64,000 bases of DNA from Haladaptatus sp. ZSTT2 (lineage in GTDB: Archaea; Halobacteriota; Halobacteria; Halobacteriales; Halococcaceae): the NCBI RefSeq assembly GCF_037081775.1, contig NZ_JBAMHQ010000001.1, forward strand, positions 1,922,001 through 1,986,000, read 5' to 3'. Below the pieces are notes generated by a model. The model made no database searches. It was given only the letters and a program-made list of their open reading frames with translations, and had not been told where the DNA came from. The position numbers and the translations under genes are program-made. Shown here piece after piece: positions 48,806-57,086 of this stretch. Numbering within the stretch: position 1 is the stretch's first letter; each line of letters opens with the position of its first letter.

Positions 48806-49255
48806 TTACGAAAACCGCTTTTTCACTTTGCCGAACAGCCCGCCGTCGTCATCGTCGGTGTCGTCGGTCGTGTCTGCTGTGCCGTCTGCCGTGGACGCTT
48901 CCTCGGTCGGTGGCTCGGAATCGGTGTCCACCGTCTCCGCTGCGGACGCGTCACCGGCAATCGAGACGGCCTCCTCAATCATCGCACCCGCGTCGTTCAC
49001 GGCGTCTTTGACCGTGCCGTTTACGAGCGGTTTCCCCTCGAAGCGGTCGGTCTGAACCTTGGTGTCTGCGGCGACGATGACTGCGTCGGCCGCGGCGATA
49101 TCGTCTGCAGTGAGTTCGTTTTCCGTGCCCATGGCCCCGTTGACCTCGACTTTGATTTCGTGGCCCAGCTCGGGGGCGCTTTGTTCTAAGTTCTCGGCGG
49201 CCATCTGGCTGTGTGCGATTCCCGTCGGACAGGCGGTTACGGCGACGAATTTCAT
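48806..49255 (-). CDS. ptfB: Fructose PTS component EIIB
   Basis: The phosphocarrier that receives phosphate from EIIA and gives it to fructose bound on EIIC. The active site Cys is C9 in VTACPTGIAHSQMAAE. Residues 1-103 form the EIIB domain; beyond it lies a tail of about 45 residues rich in Asp, Thr and Glu (TVDTDSEPPTEEASTADGTA) ending in a basic KKRFS, not usual in bacterial EIIB. The ATG at 49255 overlaps the ptsI stop (ATGA). It is last in ptfC-ptfA-ptsH1-ptsI-ptfB, the order known in Haloferax. Confidence 0.93.
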   Translation of the reverse strand: MKFVAVTACPTGIAHSQMAAENLEQSAPELGHEIKVEVNGAMGTENELTADDIAAADAVIVAADTKVQTDRFEGKPLVNGTVKDAVNDAGAMIEEAVSIAGDASAAETVDTDSEPPTEEASTADGTADTTDDTDDDDGGLFGKVKKRFS

Positions 49256-50934
49256 TGGTTGAGCAGTTGTGTGATGTCTGAGATAGTCGTTGCGGCCAGC
49301 GCGTCGCTGGCGAGTGTGGCGGCGTCTGCGTGCGATGTTGCGGCGACGCCCGCTTTCACATCCGGGATGGTGATGGCACTCATCGATAGCTCGTCTAAGC
49401 CGAGGCCGACGAGCAGTTTGAGCAGCGTTGGGTCGCCCGCCATCTCGCCGCACATCCCGACCCAGCAGTCGTGTTCGTGGCCCACCTGTACGATGCGGTG
49501 GATGGCCCGAAGCACGGCCGGGTGGCGTGGGTCGTGGAGGTAGGAGATGCGGTCGTTCTCGCGGGAGGTCGCCATCACGTACTGCGTGAGGTCGTTCGTC
49601 CCGATGCTGAAGAAGTCCACGCGCGTGGCGAGTTCTTCTGCCATGAACACCGCACTCGGCGTCTCTACCATGACGCCGAACTCGGGGCGCGCCCACTCGA
49701 CGCCCGCTTCCTCAAGGTCGGCTGCAACCTCGTCTACGGCTTCGAGCGCACGGTCGAGTTCGTCCACGGTCGAGACGAGGGGGAACATGACCGAGAGACC
49801 GTCGCCGTGTTCGCTCGCCGCCGCACGCATGAGCGCCCGCAGTTGCGTGCGAAACAGGTCAGCGTCGGAGTCGAGCGACCGGCGGATGCCGCGCTCGCCG
49901 AGGAATGGATTTTCTTCGGGCGCTTGGTCGAGATACGGAATCGGTTTGTCCCCACCGATGTCGAGCGTCCGGACGACGACGCGGCCGTCGGGGAACGCAG
50001 ACAGCGTCTCCGCGATTGCCTCGTACTGCTCGTCTTCGCTTGGGGGCGACTCGCGGTTGAAAAACAGGAACTCGGTGCGAAACAGGCCAATCCCGTCTGC
50101 GCCGTGTTCGACCGCGCTCTCGATTTCTGCGGGCGTCCCGACGTTTGCGGCGACTTCGATGGACACGCCGTCGGTGGTCTCGACGGCGTCCGTATGGATC
50201 TCAACGTCGCGGCCACTCGCGGCGTCGGCTCTCACGGCCTCGTCGGGGTCAACGATGATCTCGCCTGCGTTGCCGTCAATGACGACTTCCGTTCCTTCCT
50301 GAATATCTTCGATGCCCGCGCCCGCGCCGACGACCGCGGGGATGCCAAGCGAGCGAGCGAAGATGGCGGCGTGTGAGGTGCGCCCGCCTTCGACGGTGGC
50401 GAAGCCCGCGACCCGCGAGGGGTCGAGCTGGGCCGTGTCGCTCGGCGTGAGGCGCTCTGCGAGGAGAATCGTTCCCGCGGGGAGCGCAGAGAGGTCGATG
50501 CGCTCGCTCCCGGCGAGGATGCGCACCAGTCGGTTGCGAACGTCGCGCAGGTCGTCTGCGCGCTCTGCCATCATCCCGTCCATCGACTCGAACTGTGCGA
50601 TGGGGTCTGCGAACGCCTCGCGGACGGCGGCGGTCGCAGCGAGGCCGTCGTCGATACCGTCCTCGACGCTGGCTTCGATTTGCGGGTCTGCGAGGAACTG
50701 GAGGTGGGCGTCGAACACGCCTGCTTCGTCCTCACCGACCAGGTCGCGGGTTCGTTCGCGCTCTGCTTCGATTTCTTCACGAGCGGTCTCCTTTGCGTCC
50801 TCGAAGTTGGCACGCTCCTCTTCGGGCGTCCCGGCGTCGGTCGTCTCGGGGAGGCTCTCGTCTGGGCGATACCAGCGGACAGTTCCGACATCGGAAAGCG
50901 GCGTCGCGCCGGTTCCAGTGACGGTTCGAGACAT
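49252..50934 (-). CDS. ptsI: PTS enzyme I (phosphoenolpyruvate-protein phosphotransferase)
   Basis: Enzyme I autophosphorylates from phosphoenolpyruvate and passes the phosphate to HPr. The 560-residue protein has the phosphohistidine H188 in GGRTSHAAIFARSLGIPAVV, IGLFRTEFLFF, and the PEP-binding block FFSIGTNDLTQY with RHPAVLRAIHRIV and the Cys of GMCGEMAGDP near the end. All are intact. The ATG at 50934 is chosen because ptsH1 ends four bases upstream and the N-terminal domain begins directly; the longer frame to 51042 would overlap ptsH1. Confidence 0.95.
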   Translation of the reverse strand: MSRTVTGTGATPLSDVGTVRWYRPDESLPETTDAGTPEEERANFEDAKETAREEIEAERERTRDLVGEDEAGVFDAHLQFLADPQIEASVEDGIDDGLAATAAVREAFADPIAQFESMDGMMAERADDLRDVRNRLVRILAGSERIDLSALPAGTILLAERLTPSDTAQLDPSRVAGFATVEGGRTSHAAIFARSLGIPAVVGAGAGIEDIQEGTEVVIDGNAGEIIVDPDEAVRADAASGRDVEIHTDAVETTDGVSIEVAANVGTPAEIESAVEHGADGIGLFRTEFLFFNRESPPSEDEQYEAIAETLSAFPDGRVVVRTLDIGGDKPIPYLDQAPEENPFLGERGIRRSLDSDADLFRTQLRALMRAAASEHGDGLSVMFPLVSTVDELDRALEAVDEVAADLEEAGVEWARPEFGVMVETPSAVFMAEELATRVDFFSIGTNDLTQYVMATSRENDRISYLHDPRHPAVLRAIHRIVQVGHEHDCWVGMCGEMAGDPTLLKLLVGLGLDELSMSAITIPDVKAGVAATSHADAATLASDALAATTISDITQLLNQ

Positions 50935-50938
50935 CTGT

Positions 50939-51205
50939 TCAGGCACTGTCTTCGGGGGTTGTAAGGATTGCTTCGAGCGCGTCGAGGGCGGCTTCTGCGT
51001 CCGCGCCCTCGGCGGTGAGCACCACGTCGTCGCCGGAGGCAACGCCGAGGCTCGTCACCGCGAGCATGCTCTGGGCGTTGACCGCATCGCCGTCTGCGGG
51101 GGCAATCGTAATCTCCGAGTCGTACTCTCCCGCGGCCTCGACGAAGCTCGCGGCGGGGCGGGCGTGGAGGCCGTCTTCGGGGACGACGGTGACGGTGCGC
51201 TCCAT
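50939..51205 (-). CDS. ptsH1: PTS phosphocarrier protein HPr
   Basis: An 88-residue HPr. H14 in DGLHARPAASFVEAA is the phosphoacceptor from enzyme I. A serine at position 46 (NAQSMLAVTSLG) corresponds to the regulatory Ser46 of bacterial HPr, although no HPr kinase is seen here. The start shares one base with the ptfA stop (TAATG), indicating coupled translation. Confidence 0.95.
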   Translation of the reverse strand: MERTVTVVPEDGLHARPAASFVEAAGEYDSEITIAPADGDAVNAQSMLAVTSLGVASGDDVVLTAEGADAEAALDALEAILTTPEDSA

Positions 51206-51669
51206 TACGCCACCGCCTCCTTGAGCGTCTCGCGGACGGTCGCCTCTGTCTCTGCGTCGTACAGCGATTCGCGCACTTCCTCGTGCATGAGCGCCCGAGA
51301 GAGCGAACTCAGAATCTGGAGGTGGTCGTCGCTGCCCTCGGCCGGGACGAGAATCATGAAGATGAGGTGGGCCGGTTCGTCGTCCATCGCGCCGAAGTCG
51401 ATTCCCGCCTCAGAGCGGGTAAAGGCGACGAGAGGCTCGTCTACGGCGTCGGTTTTCGCGTGGGGGATGCCGATGCCCATGCCGACGCCGGTCGTCGTCT
51501 GTTCTTCGCGTTCGAGGAGGGCTGTGAGGGCTGCATCGCGGTCGGTTACGCGGCCGCCGGAGACCGCGAGGTCGAGGAGGTATTCGATGCATGCGCGCTT
51601 CTCTGTCGGGGCTCCGGAAAGCGAGATGTGCGTCTCCGGAAGCAGGGTGTCAATGGTTTCTGAGTGCAT
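51205..51669 (-). CDS. ptfA: Fructose PTS component EIIA
   Basis: A 154-residue EIIA of the fructose/mannitol class. Active-site H70 lies in VGMGIGIPHAKTDAV, and LVPAEGSDDHLQILSSLSRA is the typical late motif. It takes phosphate from HPr and gives it to EIIB. The ATG at 51669 (MHSETIDTLLPETH) is used because a longer frame would enter the ptfC gene region. Between ptfC (34-base gap) and ptsH1 (one-base overlap). Confidence 0.94.
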   Translation of the reverse strand: MHSETIDTLLPETHISLSGAPTEKRACIEYLLDLAVSGGRVTDRDAALTALLEREEQTTTGVGMGIGIPHAKTDAVDEPLVAFTRSEAGIDFGAMDDEPAHLIFMILVPAEGSDDHLQILSSLSRALMHEEVRESLYDAETEATVRETLKEAVA

Positions 51670-51703
51670 TGTTGATGAAAAGGTGGACGCGTTCTGTGTG
51701 TGC

Positions 51704-52828
51704 TCAATCGGACGATTGTGATGTAGTTCCTGTGGCAGACTCGCCAACAGTTGCCTTGAGGCCGGTTGCCATGCCCGCGGTCACGAGCGAGCCAAGCAGG
51801 ACACAGCCGATGAACAGCAGGGGTTGGTTCGAGAGCGGGACGACGAAGATGCCGCCGTGTGGGGCGGGCATCGTCACGCCGAGAGACATTGAGGCACCAC
51901 CGGCGACGGCGCTCCCGGCGACGAGGGCGGGAATCACCCGAAGTGGGTCTGCGGCAGCGTAGGGAATCGCACCTTCCGTGATGAACGACAGGCCCATCAG
52001 GACGCCGTTTTTCGCGTTCTCTTTCATCTCGGTAGCGTACCTCTGTGGGGCGATGAAGTTCGAAATCGCCATGCCGAGCGGCGGCGTCATGCCAGCGATC
52101 ATGACGGCGGCCATCGGGGCGTACACGCCCTCGCTGATGAGGCCGACCGAGAATAGGTAGGCCACCTTGTTGACGGGTCCACCCATGTCGAACGCCATCA
52201 TCCCGCCGAGGATGAGACCGATGACGAGCGCCTGTCCGCCCTGTAAGCTTTTGAGGAAGGCAGTGAGCGACTGGTTTGCGATGGCGACGGGTGCGCCGAT
52301 GCCGAAGAGGACGACCGGGGCGAGCACCGCCGTCGTGAGGACGGGGATGATGAGCACCGGCATCATCGGAGCAATCTCTTTCGGGACGTTCAGGTTCTTG
52401 AAGAAGCGTGCAACATAGCCGGTGAGCAGTCCGGCCACGAGCGCGCCGAGGTAGCCAGCACCGAGGCCACCGGCGTCTAAGCCGATGAACTTGCCTGCCT
52501 CGGTGACGACCGTGCCCTGCTGGAGCAGATATGAGAGCACAAACCCGGGAGCGAGTGCGGGGCGGTCTGCGATTGCGTACGCGATGTAGGCACCGAGCAC
52601 CGGAACCATCAGGGTCAGCCCGGCCACGCCAATCTGGGCGAGGAACCAACCGAGTGAACCCGTGTTGTCGAACACAGTCTGTGTGTCGCCAACGGCGAAC
52701 CCGAGGGCGAGGAAAATACCACCAATCGTGACGAACGGAATCATGAACGAGACCCCGGTCATCAGGTCTTCCTTCACAGAAGTGAGGTGTGTTCGGAGCG
52801 CCGTTTCTACTGAATCGCTAGATGACAT
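51704..52828 (-). CDS. ptfC: Fructose PTS permease EIIC
   Basis: A 374-residue membrane permease that takes up fructose and releases fructose-1-phosphate with EIIB. About nine hydrophobic segments are visible; family landmarks are PFVTIGGIFLALGFAVGD, MMAFDMGGPVNKVAYLFSVG, GLSFITEGAIPYAAADPLRV and TMPAPHGGIFV. It is a stand-alone EIIC. The 137-base region upstream, toward pfkB, is strikingly AT-rich and should hold its own promoter; a TCGAACG motif at 52836-52842 matches one before glpR. Confidence 0.94.
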   Translation of the reverse strand: MSSSDSVETALRTHLTSVKEDLMTGVSFMIPFVTIGGIFLALGFAVGDTQTVFDNTGSLGWFLAQIGVAGLTLMVPVLGAYIAYAIADRPALAPGFVLSYLLQQGTVVTEAGKFIGLDAGGLGAGYLGALVAGLLTGYVARFFKNLNVPKEIAPMMPVLIIPVLTTAVLAPVVLFGIGAPVAIANQSLTAFLKSLQGGQALVIGLILGGMMAFDMGGPVNKVAYLFSVGLISEGVYAPMAAVMIAGMTPPLGMAISNFIAPQRYATEMKENAKNGVLMGLSFITEGAIPYAAADPLRVIPALVAGSAVAGGASMSLGVTMPAPHGGIFVVPLSNQPLLFIGCVLLGSLVTAGMATGLKATVGESATGTTSQSSD

Positions 52829-52965
52829 GGTCTGCTCGAACGCTAGAGACTGTGTTCAAAAGATGTTTCGAATATGATTATTTATGTATATTTAGTAACG
52901 GAATTTATTGGCTACTTCTCTCTATTGACAAAATAATGCACGGAAGAAAGCCGTTTACCCGGCTC
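52829..52965. promoter_or_regulatory. AT-rich ptfC promoter region
   Basis: This gap is far richer in A and T than its surroundings, with minus-strand TATA-like runs near 52875-52892. It has a partial dyad TTCAAA...TTTCGAA at about 52851-52868 and the motif TCGAACG at 52836-52842, 8-14 bases before the ATG. A matching motif lies at 54644-54650 before glpR. Confidence 0.5.
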
Positions 52966-53877
52966 TTACTGTCGTGCAGAAACAGTCACGCGGCCTGCGT
53001 TGCGTTGCACGTTTGACAACACTGGCACCTGTGTGCCGGGGGTAGTGACCACTTCTGACGCGATGGCGACTCCCTCTTTGAGAGCTGCTTCGTCTCCCAC
53101 CCCGCGCGCGAACGCCGACAGCATGCCCGCGAGGAACGCATCGCCCGCGCCGACGGTGTCTACGACGTCCACGTCGAGTGCGGCCGCGTGGAACACGCGT
53201 TCTGGGGTGACGAGCAGCGCGCCGTCGTCACCGAGCGATGCCGCCACGCGCTCGTAGCCCTGTTCGCGCAGGGCTTTCGCCGCCGCGACGCAGTCTTCGA
53301 GCGACTCCGTCTCCACCCCAGTCGCCACAGTGAGTTCTTCTCGGTTCGGTTTACAGAGTGCGTACTCCGCAGATAGCTCGGTGAGCAGGTCGCCGCCGAC
53401 GTCCACGACGGTCTCCCACGCGCCCGCTTGCGCGATGCGGTCTATCGCGCTCGCATCGAGTCCCTGCGGCAGGCTGCCCGCGATAACGACCGTTTCAGGG
53501 TCGTGTTGCTGTGCGGTGTCGATGATGTGCTCTATGGCAGCCACACCGACGTGCGGGCCGTCTTGGTTCACCTTGAACTCGCCGTCTGGCGCGTGCAGGG
53601 TCGTGTTCAGCCGCGTGAGTCCCGTAATCTCGACGAAGTCTGTTGAGACGCCGGTTTCGTCGAGTCGTGTCTCGATGAACTGGCCGAGAAAGCCGCCGAC
53701 GAGACCGGTCGCACAGGTCTTGACGCCGCATTCGCCGAGGTATTTCGAGACGTTGATGCCCTTGCCACCGGCGTCGTACTGGGCGTCGTTTGTTCGCGCC
53801 ACTTCGCCGTGGCGGAGGGGCTGGTCGAGCGTGAGCGTGTGGTCAACTGCGGGATTCAGGGTGACGGTCAGTATCAT
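52966..53877 (-). CDS. pfkB: 1-phosphofructokinase
   Basis: Phosphorylates fructose-1-phosphate made by the PTS to fructose-1,6-bisphosphate. The 303-residue ribokinase-fold protein has the N-terminal GGKGINVSKYLGECG (substrate binding), VVIAGSLPQGLDASAI, and the C-terminal DTVGAGDAFLAGMLSAF with the catalytic Asp. It overlaps the glpR stop by four bases, so the regulator and kinase form one transcript. No fructose-bisphosphate aldolase gene is seen in the window. Confidence 0.93.
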   Translation of the reverse strand: MILTVTLNPAVDHTLTLDQPLRHGEVARTNDAQYDAGGKGINVSKYLGECGVKTCATGLVGGFLGQFIETRLDETGVSTDFVEITGLTRLNTTLHAPDGEFKVNQDGPHVGVAAIEHIIDTAQQHDPETVVIAGSLPQGLDASAIDRIAQAGAWETVVDVGGDLLTELSAEYALCKPNREELTVATGVETESLEDCVAAAKALREQGYERVAASLGDDGALLVTPERVFHAAALDVDVVDTVGAGDAFLAGMLSAFARGVGDEAALKEGVAIASEVVTTPGTQVPVLSNVQRNAGRVTVSARQ

Positions 53878-54635
53878 TGTGTCTGAAGAACGTCTACGTT
53901 TGCCGCGTCGAACGCTTCTTGGTGTACTGCACTGAGCGACTGATTGGTGATGAACACGTCAATGTCCGCGAGCGTGGCGAACTCGATGAAACTGCGCTTG
54001 CCGAGTTTCGACCCGTCTGCGACGAGCACGACGCGCTCTGCGCGCGCTATCATGACCTCTTTGACGAGCGCTTCGTCCTCGTTTGGGGTGCTCAGACCGC
54101 CTCCTTTGTCGATGGCGTTCGTCCCGAGAAACAGCAGGTCGAAGTTCATACGTTCCATGAAGCCCGTCGCACTCGGGCCGACAAGCGCGCGGGTTCGCCG
54201 CCGGAGCGTCCCGCCGGTGAGTTTCACCTCGTTTTCGTCGCTCATGAGTTCCATGGCGAGCAACGGCGAGTTCGTCACCGCGAGAAACGAGCCGTCTTTC
54301 GGCGCGCGCTTTGCGACCTGCATCGTCGTCGTCCCGGCGTCGAAAAACACGACCTGTCCGGGGTGAATCTGACCCGTCGCAACCTCCGCGATGGCCGCCT
54401 TTTCCTCTAACCGCTGGACGTCGCGCTGGCCGTAGCTCTGTTCGCGCCCGACGGCGGTCACCGGAACCGCACCGCCGTGTGACCGCTCGATGAGTCCCTC
54501 CTCTTCGAGTTCGCGGAGGTCACGCCGAATCGTTGCCTTCGAAAACTCAAGGTTCGTTGCGAGTTCATCGACGGCACAGCCATCGTGCGCGGTGACCAGT
54601 TCGACGATTTTTCGCTTTCGCTCGGCGGGTAACAT
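53874..54635 (-). CDS. glpR: DeoR-family repressor GlpR
   Basis: A 253-residue DeoR-type regulator: the N-terminal HTH (DELATNLEFSKATIRRDLRE followed by LEEEGLIERSHGGAVPV) and a sugar-phosphate sensor domain with VVFFDAGTTTMQVAKRAPKD, MNFDLLFLGTNAIDKGGGLS and VVLVADGSKLGKRSFIEFA. In Haloferax, GlpR represses pfkB and glycerol/fructose genes; the same gene order here supports the name. Its own start region carries CGTTCGA (54644-54650) and a TATA-like attaac about 21-26 bases upstream. Confidence 0.92.
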   Translation of the reverse strand: MLPAERKRKIVELVTAHDGCAVDELATNLEFSKATIRRDLRELEEEGLIERSHGGAVPVTAVGREQSYGQRDVQRLEEKAAIAEVATGQIHPGQVVFFDAGTTTMQVAKRAPKDGSFLAVTNSPLLAMELMSDENEVKLTGGTLRRRTRALVGPSATGFMERMNFDLLFLGTNAIDKGGGLSTPNEDEALVKEVMIARAERVVLVADGSKLGKRSFIEFATLADIDVFITNQSLSAVHQEAFDAANVDVLQTQ

Positions 54636-54738: not shown

Positions 54739-55572
54739 TCAGGCTGGCTTCCCGGACATCAGGTCGTCGCGCTCGCGCAGTTCGCGGCTGAAGTACGGCG
54801 AGGCGTCTTCACGGGCGCTCAGTTCAGTCATCACGACGAAGGCGATGGCCCAGACAACGGCCAGCGCACCCCAGAGTGTCCCCGCGCTCGACGTGAGCGT
54901 CGGAAGGACGATCGAAGCGAAACCTATGTACGCGGCAAACATCCCAGCCAGCCAGGCGAGCAGGCGGAAGCCAATCGACTCGAACGCGACGAGCAGGCCT
55001 GCTGCGATTATGGTGAGCGCGAGGGCTACCATTGGCATGTAGTGGCCGAACAAGGCGTGTTCGTCACCAGTGGCTTGGAGTTGGAACTGGTTTCCAGCGT
55101 AGGCCAACAGCGGAACAGCCGCTGCGACGGTGAGCACGAGTAGAGCAGGGCTGTATCGTTCCCCGACGGTGAATAGTCTGCGACCCGCTGGGTGCAGGAG
55201 TCCAATCAGTACGATTGGGATGAAAAACACCACAACGCCAAGGTCGCCCATCATGACCTGAAGGACAGTCAGAGACGCCATCGCGAGGAACGTCGCCTGG
55301 TATGCGGCGACTCTCGTTTCGGGCTTGTAGAGCTGGACGAGGACGCCGAGCGTAATGAACGCAACGAGGCTTGCGAGCGCGATGAGGTGGAACTGGTGGA
55401 TGCCGAGTTCCGCACCCATCGTGAAACCAAGGACGAGGAACAACAACAACTCACCGACGGTTAATACGAATATGCCAACCGTTGCGATAACGACGAGGTA
55501 GAACGCCACGCGCTTCGCACGCTGCATCGTGGTTGTGGTGGATTGGTCGACTGACGATTCTGTAACTGTCAT
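54739..55572 (-). CDS. Eight-helix membrane protein, tandem paralogue A
   Basis: A 277-residue protein with about eight hydrophobic segments from residue 20 to 245 and a soluble charged tail AREDASPYFSRELRERDDLM then SGKPA. Residues shared with paralogue B include LGIHQ-F/L-H near the first loop, LVQLYKP-x-TRVAA, GLLHPAGR, GDEHAL-x-GHY and LLVAFESIGFRLLAWL; the repeated His residues at predicted membrane borders could bind a metal or heme. I do not recognise the family and give no function. The ATG at 55572 is used; a dyad (55611-55631) lies 39 bases before it, as in paralogue B. Confidence 0.75.
   Translation of the reverse strand: MTVTESSVDQSTTTTMQRAKRVAFYLVVIATVGIFVLTVGELLLFLVLGFTMGAELGIHQFHLIALASLVAFITLGVLVQLYKPETRVAAYQATFLAMASLTVLQVMMGDLGVVVFFIPIVLIGLLHPAGRRLFTVGERYSPALLVLTVAAAVPLLAYAGNQFQLQATGDEHALFGHYMPMVALALTIIAAGLLVAFESIGFRLLAWLAGMFAAYIGFASIVLPTLTSSAGTLWGALAVVWAIAFVVMTELSAREDASPYFSRELRERDDLMSGKPA
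54746..54821. repeat. Direct repeat, copy 1 (paralogue C-terminal end)
   Basis: These 76 bases match 55680-55755 with three mismatches. They encode the common C-terminal tail of the two membrane paralogues, and the offset between copies is 934 bases. Confidence 0.9.
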
Positions 55573-55610
55573 TATTATCACTCAGTAGGCGTACGGACGG
55601 CCGGTGAGGG

Positions 55611-55631
55611 GATAATAATGGTTCGATTGTC
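55611..55631. promoter_or_regulatory. Dyad GATAAT-N9-ATTGTC before paralogue A
   Basis: GATAAT at 55611-55616 and ATTGTC at 55626-55631. The inner edge is 39 bases from the ATG at 55572. The same pattern with one base changed lies at 56557-56577 before paralogue B at the same distance. Confidence 0.55.
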
Positions 55632-55669
55632 TGGAAAAAGATGCTATTTCTGGAACAAACGGCTGGTTT

Positions 55670-56518
55670 TTATCCGGCCGGCTTCCCGGGCATCAGGTCG
55701 TCACGCTCGCGCAGTTCGCGGCTGAAGTACGGCGAGGCGTCTTCGCGGGCGCTCATCTCCGCGGCGGCGACGAACACGATTGCCCAGACGATGGCGAGCC
55801 CACCCCAGAGGACGCCAACGTTCGACGCCTGAATCGGGAGCACCACCGAGAGGAGGCCGAAGTATGCTGTCAGCACCCCAAGGAGCCAGGCGAGCAGGCG
55901 GAAGCCAATCGACTCGAACGCGACGAGCAGGCCGGCGATGACGATGGTGAGCGACAGCGTCGCCATCATGGCGTAGTGGCCCATGAGCGCGTGCTCGTCA
56001 CCCGCCCCAGTTTGGAGTCCGAGTTGGTTGATAACGAACGCGAGCAGCGGGATGGCCGCCACGATTGTCAACCCGAGCAGCGCCGGGCTGTACTTCTTCC
56101 CGACCGTGAGGAGCTTCCTGCCCGCGGGGTGGAGCAGCCCGACCACGACGAACGCGACGAAGAACGGGAGCACCTCACTCAGCGAGGCGTTGCCCGTGAG
56201 CGCGAGGATGAGCGTGGCAATGGCGATCATCACCGCACCCGCTTGGAACGCCGCCACGCGCGTCACTGGCTTGTACAACTGAACGAGCATCGTCAGTGCC
56301 CCGAAGAACACGACGATTGCAATGCCCATGACGTGGAGTTGGTGGATACCGAGTTCCTGGCCGAGGCCGAAGCCAAGCCCGAGGAGCATGAACAGCTCAC
56401 CCGTAAACAGCACGAACATGCCCAGTGTGATGAGTACCGCGAGGTAGAACGCCCCCAGCTTGATTCTGCTCATCGTCATGCCACCCGTTTCACTCATCGA
56501 AGTTTCTGAAGTTGCCAC
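55670..56518 (-). CDS. Eight-helix membrane protein, tandem paralogue B
   Basis: A 282-residue paralogue of the downstream gene, alignable over its whole length with the same eight hydrophobic segments and tail (YFSRELRERDDLMPGKPAG). The GTG at 56518 (VATSETSMSETG) is preferred to the ATG at 56497. It aligns with the start of paralogue A (MTVTESSV), and the upstream dyad is then exactly 39 bases away in both genes. Direct repeats of 76 and 49 bases with a constant offset show tandem duplication with later sequence exchange. Function unknown; the conserved HQLH and DEHALMGHY are the residues to test. Confidence 0.75.
   Translation of the reverse strand: MATSETSMSETGGMTMSRIKLGAFYLAVLITLGMFVLFTGELFMLLGLGFGLGQELGIHQLHVMGIAIVVFFGALTMLVQLYKPVTRVAAFQAGAVMIAIATLILALTGNASLSEVLPFFVAFVVVGLLHPAGRKLLTVGKKYSPALLGLTIVAAIPLLAFVINQLGLQTGAGDEHALMGHYAMMATLSLTIVIAGLLVAFESIGFRLLAWLLGVLTAYFGLLSVVLPIQASNVGVLWGGLAIVWAIVFVAAAEMSAREDASPYFSRELRERDDLMPGKPAG
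55680..55755. repeat. Direct repeat, copy 2
   Basis: Partner of 54746-54821, three mismatches in 76 bases. Confidence 0.9.
55885..55933. repeat. Identical 49-base block shared by the paralogues
   Basis: Identical to 54951-54999, at the same 934-base offset. It encodes the LLVAFESIGFRLLAWL region, while the DNA on both sides is much less similar. Confidence 0.9.
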
Positions 56519-56556
56519 TGTAATTCACCTACCCGTGCTGATTTGCCCGATGAGGA

Positions 56557-56577
56557 GATAATAATTCACGAATTATC
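56557..56577. promoter_or_regulatory. Dyad GATAAT-N9-ATTATC before paralogue B
   Basis: A perfect inverted repeat, GATAAT at 56557-56562 and ATTATC at 56572-56577, 39 bases before the GTG at 56518. Counterpart of 55611-55631. Confidence 0.6.
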
Positions 56578-56690: not shown

Positions 56691-57086
56691 ATGACTCGGT
56701 TCGTGTGTGTGTCGTGCGGTTCGAGACTTACAACCGCCGTCAAAACGCTCACTGACACCGATCGTCTCTTCGACCACGATTCTGTCTCGTTTGACGAAAC
56801 CGGCGCCACAGCATACCTCCCCGAAGGCGTCTATTTCGTCGCCACCGAGACAACGAATCCTCGCGAGTACGACGTTGGTAATTTCATCGTCAACATCCAG
56901 AGTGCGCCGGGAACAGTCATGTCCCACAACCACAGCCGAACTGCTGGCTGTTGCGGACTCGACGGCCTCGACGACCCGAACGTCGTCTGCGAAAACGGCC
57001 ACGAAGTTGGCACTCAACGCTCCGATTGCTGGACACTGCACTACGTCGCGTTCCACCCTGAGTTAGTTGAGATGGTTGAGGGATGA
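56691..57086 (+). CDS. Cys-rich small protein, unknown
   Basis: A 131-residue soluble protein. A CxxC at the N terminus (MTRFVCVSCGSRL), then a cluster AGCCGLDGLDDPNVVCENGH followed by EVGTQRSDCWTLHYV, give seven Cys and several His that could bind one or two zinc ions. The middle (PEGVYFVATETTNPREYDVG) looks beta-rich. I do not recognise a named family. The start at 56691 follows a TATA element at leaderless spacing; a longer frame to 56598 is rejected. Confidence 0.7.
   Translation: MTRFVCVSCGSRLTTAVKTLTDTDRLFDHDSVSFDETGATAYLPEGVYFVATETTNPREYDVGNFIVNIQSAPGTVMSHNHSRTAGCCGLDGLDDPNVVCENGHEVGTQRSDCWTLHYVAFHPELVEMVEG

Follow-up and report, generated by a model that had tools for sequence, protein, structure and literature searches.

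Tandem paralogues in Haladaptatus of a haloarchaea-specific eight-helix membrane protein with conserved histidines predicted at the outer face

The A/B Locus

Within the window, i.e., the whole stretch of 64,000 nucleotides of Haladaptatus sp. ZSTT2 DNA that was analysed, two neighbouring genes on the minus strand encode related membrane proteins. Gene A (55,670-56,518) begins with a GTG codon and specifies an eight-TM (transmembrane helix) membrane protein of 282 residues, while gene B (54,739-55,581), its tandem paralogue, is listed with 280 residues; by comparison with the copy found in another genome of the genus (G016), translation of B probably starts at the in-frame ATG at 55,572, giving 277 residues. 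The two proteins align over their full length with 59% identity (281 columns, E = 3e-114), as expected from the initial annotation, which had described neighbouring, full-length membrane paralogues. Both contain the motifs GIHQ-x-H, LYKP-x-TR, HPAGR and DEHAL-x-GHY and share the C-terminal tail SAREDASPYFSRELRERDDLM-x-GKPA. Each has five histidines, all located within these motifs, and no cysteine. The genome holds no third copy of the family.

The genes are separated by 88 bp, and a further 103 bp separate B from glpR (53,874-54,635, minus strand), which encodes a DeoR/GlpR-type regulator. An element common to both genes, CCATTATTATCCCCTCACCG, lies on the minus strand at 55,602-55,621, about 30 nt before the start of B, and is matched upstream of A by GAATTATTATCTCCTCATC (56,549-56,567, minus strand). 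The shared form, ATTATTATC-Y-CCTCA-Y-CG, precedes A, B and all congeneric copies but one, and the element upstream of B is possibly an archaeal TATA region. The presence of a matching element before each gene suggests that A and B have separate, duplicated promoters, in keeping with the earlier remark that the genes have their own upstream sequences. Beyond A lies a divergent open reading frame of 131 aa on the plus strand (56,691-57,086), zinc-ribbon-like in its sequence (MTRFVCVSCGSRL..., with more Cys and His downstream). It has no Pfam match and did not turn up in the loci retrieved from the two congeneric genomes, and is therefore possibly a species-specific insertion.

The similarity between A and B is unevenly distributed at the DNA level. 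Overall identity is 66%, but it rises to 90-93% over the final 30 codons and to 90% between alignment codons 201 and 220; uninterrupted identical stretches measure 41 bp and 50 bp. Two patches can be delimited on the minus strand: the 3' end of B (54,739-54,834), which is about 90-93% identical to the 3' end of A, and the region around B codons 195-211, which includes the exact 50-bp run. In the tail, B is only 56-70% identical to its G016 orthologue, and the A and B copies within G016 share no exact run of at least 20 bp. The combination of high-identity blocks and low identity to the orthologue makes the identical tail look like the outcome of a gene-conversion event in this lineage, with A as the donor and B as the recipient. 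The identity of the charged tail reported initially is thus real between the two proteins but local, and the family alignment shows no conservation of the tail across the wider family.

Distribution of the Family and Genomic Context

A whole-genome search of the order recovered relatives in 55 of 392 genomes, belonging to 26 of 95 genera. At class level, 50 of 292 genomes were positive, all of the same order, with a few weak or partial matches; in a sample of the phylum, each of the 13 positive genomes was of the same order or closer. The class and phylum searches found no family member outside the haloarchaeal order, a phage collection contained none, and a scan of genome contigs with A alone as the query returned no relative; the family alignment itself lacks a block of sufficient conservation for such a scan. 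Within its own taxonomic family, only 3 of 18 genomes are positive, all of the same genus as the strain. Homologues are carried by plasmids of Halobaculum magnesiiphilum, Salinigranum rubrum and Natrononativus amylolyticus, where they are annotated as hypothetical proteins; literature searches with the accessions and locus tags of these homologues found nothing. In G081, the gene is decayed, with a frameshift and an insertion of about 1.6 kb that splits it (L175 2152-4578; G081:C3:177.7-180.1 kb). Sparse spread and the occurrence of some decaying copies characterise an accessory, patchy family.

The tandem arrangement is rarer still. It occurs in 2 of the 55 positive genomes, that of the strain studied here and G016, both of the same genus; a third congeneric genome, G017, carries A and no B, copies are dispersed in the remaining multi-copy genomes, and a single copy is present in most family-bearing genomes. 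The proposal that A and B form a general two-subunit unit is thus not sustained, nor did the suggested census of haloarchaeal genomes reveal a constant pairing. The tree unites the five congeneric proteins in a single clade (100/99), within which the A copies (99/93) and the B copies (100/99) form separate groups. This topology places the duplication before the split of these congeneric species, and B was most likely lost in G017.

Beyond glpR follow the genes for PfkB, EIIC, EIIA, HPr and EI, so that positions 49,252-54,635 hold a complete fructose-type PTS cluster in an archaeon (EI, HPr, EIIA, EIIC, PfkB and the DeoR-type regulator). Linkage of the family to glpR, pfkB and the EIIC gene is confined to the genus, and four genomes of sister genera possess a glpR-like gene and no family member, which argues that the fructose cluster, a neighbour outside the A/B system, is not a partner. 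A functional link to the PTS is accordingly disfavoured, and an operon of A and B with it was rejected, relatives elsewhere having different neighbours. Flanking genes are conserved only in one genus (g51) and in small clades. The 87 proteins encoded next to family members include five MFS transporters and three HTH_10 regulators, the most frequent families among them, and a comparison of the family loci disclosed no consistently adjacent metal, heme or redox gene. An HTH_10/BAT, FilR1-like or SRPBCC gene is directly adjacent at a few loci (L034, L037, L039 and L041). At L037 and L041, which come from different families, an SRPBCC (Polyketide_cyc2) gene lies directly upstream, with a 46-bp gap or an overlap of a few bases, and BAT/HTH_10-class genes are found farther upstream (with Pfam evidence for L041).

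Conserved Histidines and Predicted Membrane Topology

Conservation was assessed in 63 distinct homologues, with identities down to about 25%. Of these, 61 retain every one of the five histidines of A and B: H59, H62, H176 and H181 are each kept in 61, and H130, in the HPAGR motif, in 62. After P84 and P131, which are invariant prolines, the highest conservation is found mainly at the five histidines and at D174, R87, R207, S224, W245 and E254. The conserved membrane-edge histidines of the initial annotation therefore withstood a direct check for non-conservation, four of them being assigned to the outer side. The two exceptions, L094 and L095, jointly lack H59, H62, H176 and H181, and also Q80, R87 and E254. 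They form a deep sister branch in the tree, and comparison with the family profile (hhalign 96-97%, E of about 1e-10) identifies them as true relatives. These genes (L094 4319-5107, L095 3559-4335) come from genomes that are 59% and 76% complete, in two other families of the order. The joint loss of the four outer histidines supports the existence of a single functional site, which would most simply be a transition metal site.

AlphaFold2 (AF2) models show eight helices for both A (mean pLDDT 93.8) and B (mean pLDDT 93.0), and the N terminus is predicted to be inside. In the four predicted outer loops, K+R residues average 0.05, 0.00, 0.10 and 0.00, versus 1.64, 2.69, 2.54, 0.51 and 2.54 on the inner side; this clean positive-inside pattern, together with the models, agrees with the eight helices counted initially. 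Because nearly all positive charges are in the inner loops, the four histidines are placed outside. H59, H62, D174, H176 and H181 are thereby predicted at the outer face, and H130, R87, R207, E254 and the tail at the inner face. The HxxH motif marks the start of TM2 and the D-x-H-x4-H-Y motif the start of TM6, both extracellular by topology.

Searches with A, B and the family alignment against Pfam, NCBIfam and PDB sequences gave no match beyond scattered weak ones. Hits of one family member to ABCC10_N (E = 0.035) and of two members to bacteriorhodopsin (best E = 0.0077) were judged to be noise. Foldseek comparison of the A and B models with the PDB likewise gave no match (best E 0.5 and 0.2), and the family, which could not be named at the outset, has no clear counterpart among characterised families in the sequence and Foldseek searches or in the profile comparisons with CtaA, CopD and Brp/Blh. 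In VIA-align, the best repeated resemblances were to ABCC TMD0 domains and otopetrin (rmsd 3.9-5.3 Å over 142-161 residues), with Z scores of 6.8-9.6, within the range that the tool describes as common for helical bundles, and each half resembled four-helix-bundle folds (VKOR). MHYT, CtaA, Brp/Blh and CopD were not among the matches listed in the fold comparison. An internal duplication of TM1-4 and TM5-8 was considered but not established: the halves score 18.4 in hhalign (P = 0.018), above 40 reversed and rotated controls (largest score 10.4), but the unrelated BCD family scores 19.2 against the N-terminal half.

A Putative Outer-Face Metal Site and Its Alternatives

Altogether, A and B are genus-restricted tandem duplicates within a haloarchaea-specific family of eight-helix membrane proteins. 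The data show the family, its topology and conservation, the joint loss of the outer histidines and the limits of the tandem arrangement. This new, uncharacterised family probably consists of metal-binding membrane proteins; the metal, its ligands and the activity are what we infer, as are the proximity of the four outer histidines and a role in sensing or redox chemistry. The reading that we tentatively favour, and that falls somewhat short of an even chance, is an outer-face metal site made of four histidines and one aspartate, coupled to a conserved inner cluster and serving a sensor or redox role. In such a model, H59, H62, H176, H181 and D174, often joined by an acidic residue at position 41, would form one outer site for a transition metal, with Cu the likeliest candidate and Fe or Zn as alternatives. 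The inner cluster, composed of Q80, R/K83-P84, R87, H130-P131, R207 and E254, would then relay the metal state, or the metal itself or an electron, across the membrane, making the protein a metal-dependent sensor or redox protein of the outer face. Against this stand the failure of HMM, profile and fold comparisons to match the family to metalloproteins, the lack of cysteine, the partial conservation of methionine and the lack of a consistent metal, heme or redox neighbour; conserved histidines might also serve proton transfer or structure.

An alternative view takes the protein to be a transporter or channel that would carry protons, ions or small molecules and use the outer histidines and the inner Arg, His and Glu residues as gates or proton relays, with no structural metal. 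This view, which lies on the unlikely side, draws on the presence of a conserved polar cluster at either face of the eight-helix bundle, on a weak resemblance to the otopetrin proton channel (Z 6.8 for A and 8.5 for B, rmsd about 4 Å, 142-149 residues) and on a helix arrangement weakly like that of ABCC TMD0 domains. However, these Z scores are in the range that the tool warns of for helical bundles, no transporter family is matched, and the all-or-none loss of the four histidines suits a metal site at least equally well. The initial annotation had itself inferred a heme or copper site, and a membrane b-type cytochrome could be envisaged in which H59 or H62, together with H176 or H181, provide axial heme ligands within a pair of four-helix bundles like that of heme A synthase. 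The eight helices, the conserved histidines near the ends of TM2 and TM6 and the match of each half to four-helix-bundle folds (VKOR) are compatible with such a protein, which is nevertheless quite improbable: hhalign gives 0.1% with archaeal CtaA versus 96-99.9% in family-internal controls, the histidines sit at outer helix ends and not mid-bundle, the two pairs are too close to hold two hemes easily, and H130 has no second inner histidine. The spacing of the histidines (i, i+3 and i, i+5, at outer helix starts) would rather suit a non-heme metal than stacked b-hemes. Equally improbable is a protein that serves in the membrane as partner to a cytoplasmic regulator or enzyme (e.g., HTH_10 or SRPBCC) and whose histidines are conserved for folding or structure; the HTH_10/BAT, FilR1-like and SRPBCC genes adjoining at L034, L037, L039 and L041 speak for it, but these are few, and most loci have unrelated neighbours.

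The favoured outer-face metal site can be carried further, to a haloarchaea-only protein of new fold whose four-His outer site either responds to a redox metal or gas or works as an oxidoreductase. This extended form is distinctly unlikely; if it were true, MHYT and heme A synthase would be joined by another kind of membrane site built from outer-face histidines. The family is carried by about one-seventh of the haloarchaeal genomes sampled and is nameless in every library tried. Should the four outer histidines bind metal, they would constitute an archaeal membrane metal site of a new type, readily testable by mutation, for which the His-less sister branch (L094, L095) offers a natural control.

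Comparison with Known Membrane Protein Families

Several known families share individual traits with A and B. The helix packing of the otopetrin N-domain and of ABCC TMD0 is similar (Z up to 9.6 over 152-156 residues, in the background range for helical bundles), with identities of 7-12% and scores typical of chance bundle matches. Full-length forms of CtaA/Cox15 heme A synthase have eight helices and, like the A/B family, conserved histidines, but in different motifs; archaeal CtaA gave no profile match (hhalign 0.1% with the entire sequence as with either half, no PF02628 match). The genome encodes a separate CtaA-like protein of about half the usual bacterial length (L132, G000:C1:847122-847544, open frame of about 195 aa), which also occurs in relatives. 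Brp/Blh beta-carotene cleavage enzymes resemble A and B as haloarchaeal multi-helix membrane proteins with conserved histidines, and were set aside (hhalign 3.0% for the whole, no PF15461 match); the genome has no BCD gene. The likeness to the CopD copper-import family lies in the proposed membrane metal site; CopD scores 0.1-0.2% in hhalign, with no PF05425 match, and the CopD-like genes of the genome are separate from A and B.

Closest in character is the MHYT sensor domain, an integral membrane domain whose TM2 and TM6 carry conserved His/Tyr (HY) at their outer ends, often with Met close by. It comprises three motifs, one each at the outer end of TM2, TM4 and TM6, and the response to CO of the MHYT protein CoxC of Afipia carboxidovorans requires copper (PMC11347149). 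The A/B family has two such sites instead of three, with no conserved His at the outer end of TM4, and its first motif is at the start of TM2 (out-to-in), whereas that of MHYT is at the end. Unlike MHYT sensors, the A/B family has no fused signalling domain and has eight helices with the N terminus inside. A Pfam scan (E up to 1) detected no PF03707 domain in the 63 members, and the genome contains no MHYT domain. By analogy, the MHYT domain appears to be the nearest nameable functional counterpart of the A/B family, which is not itself a member.
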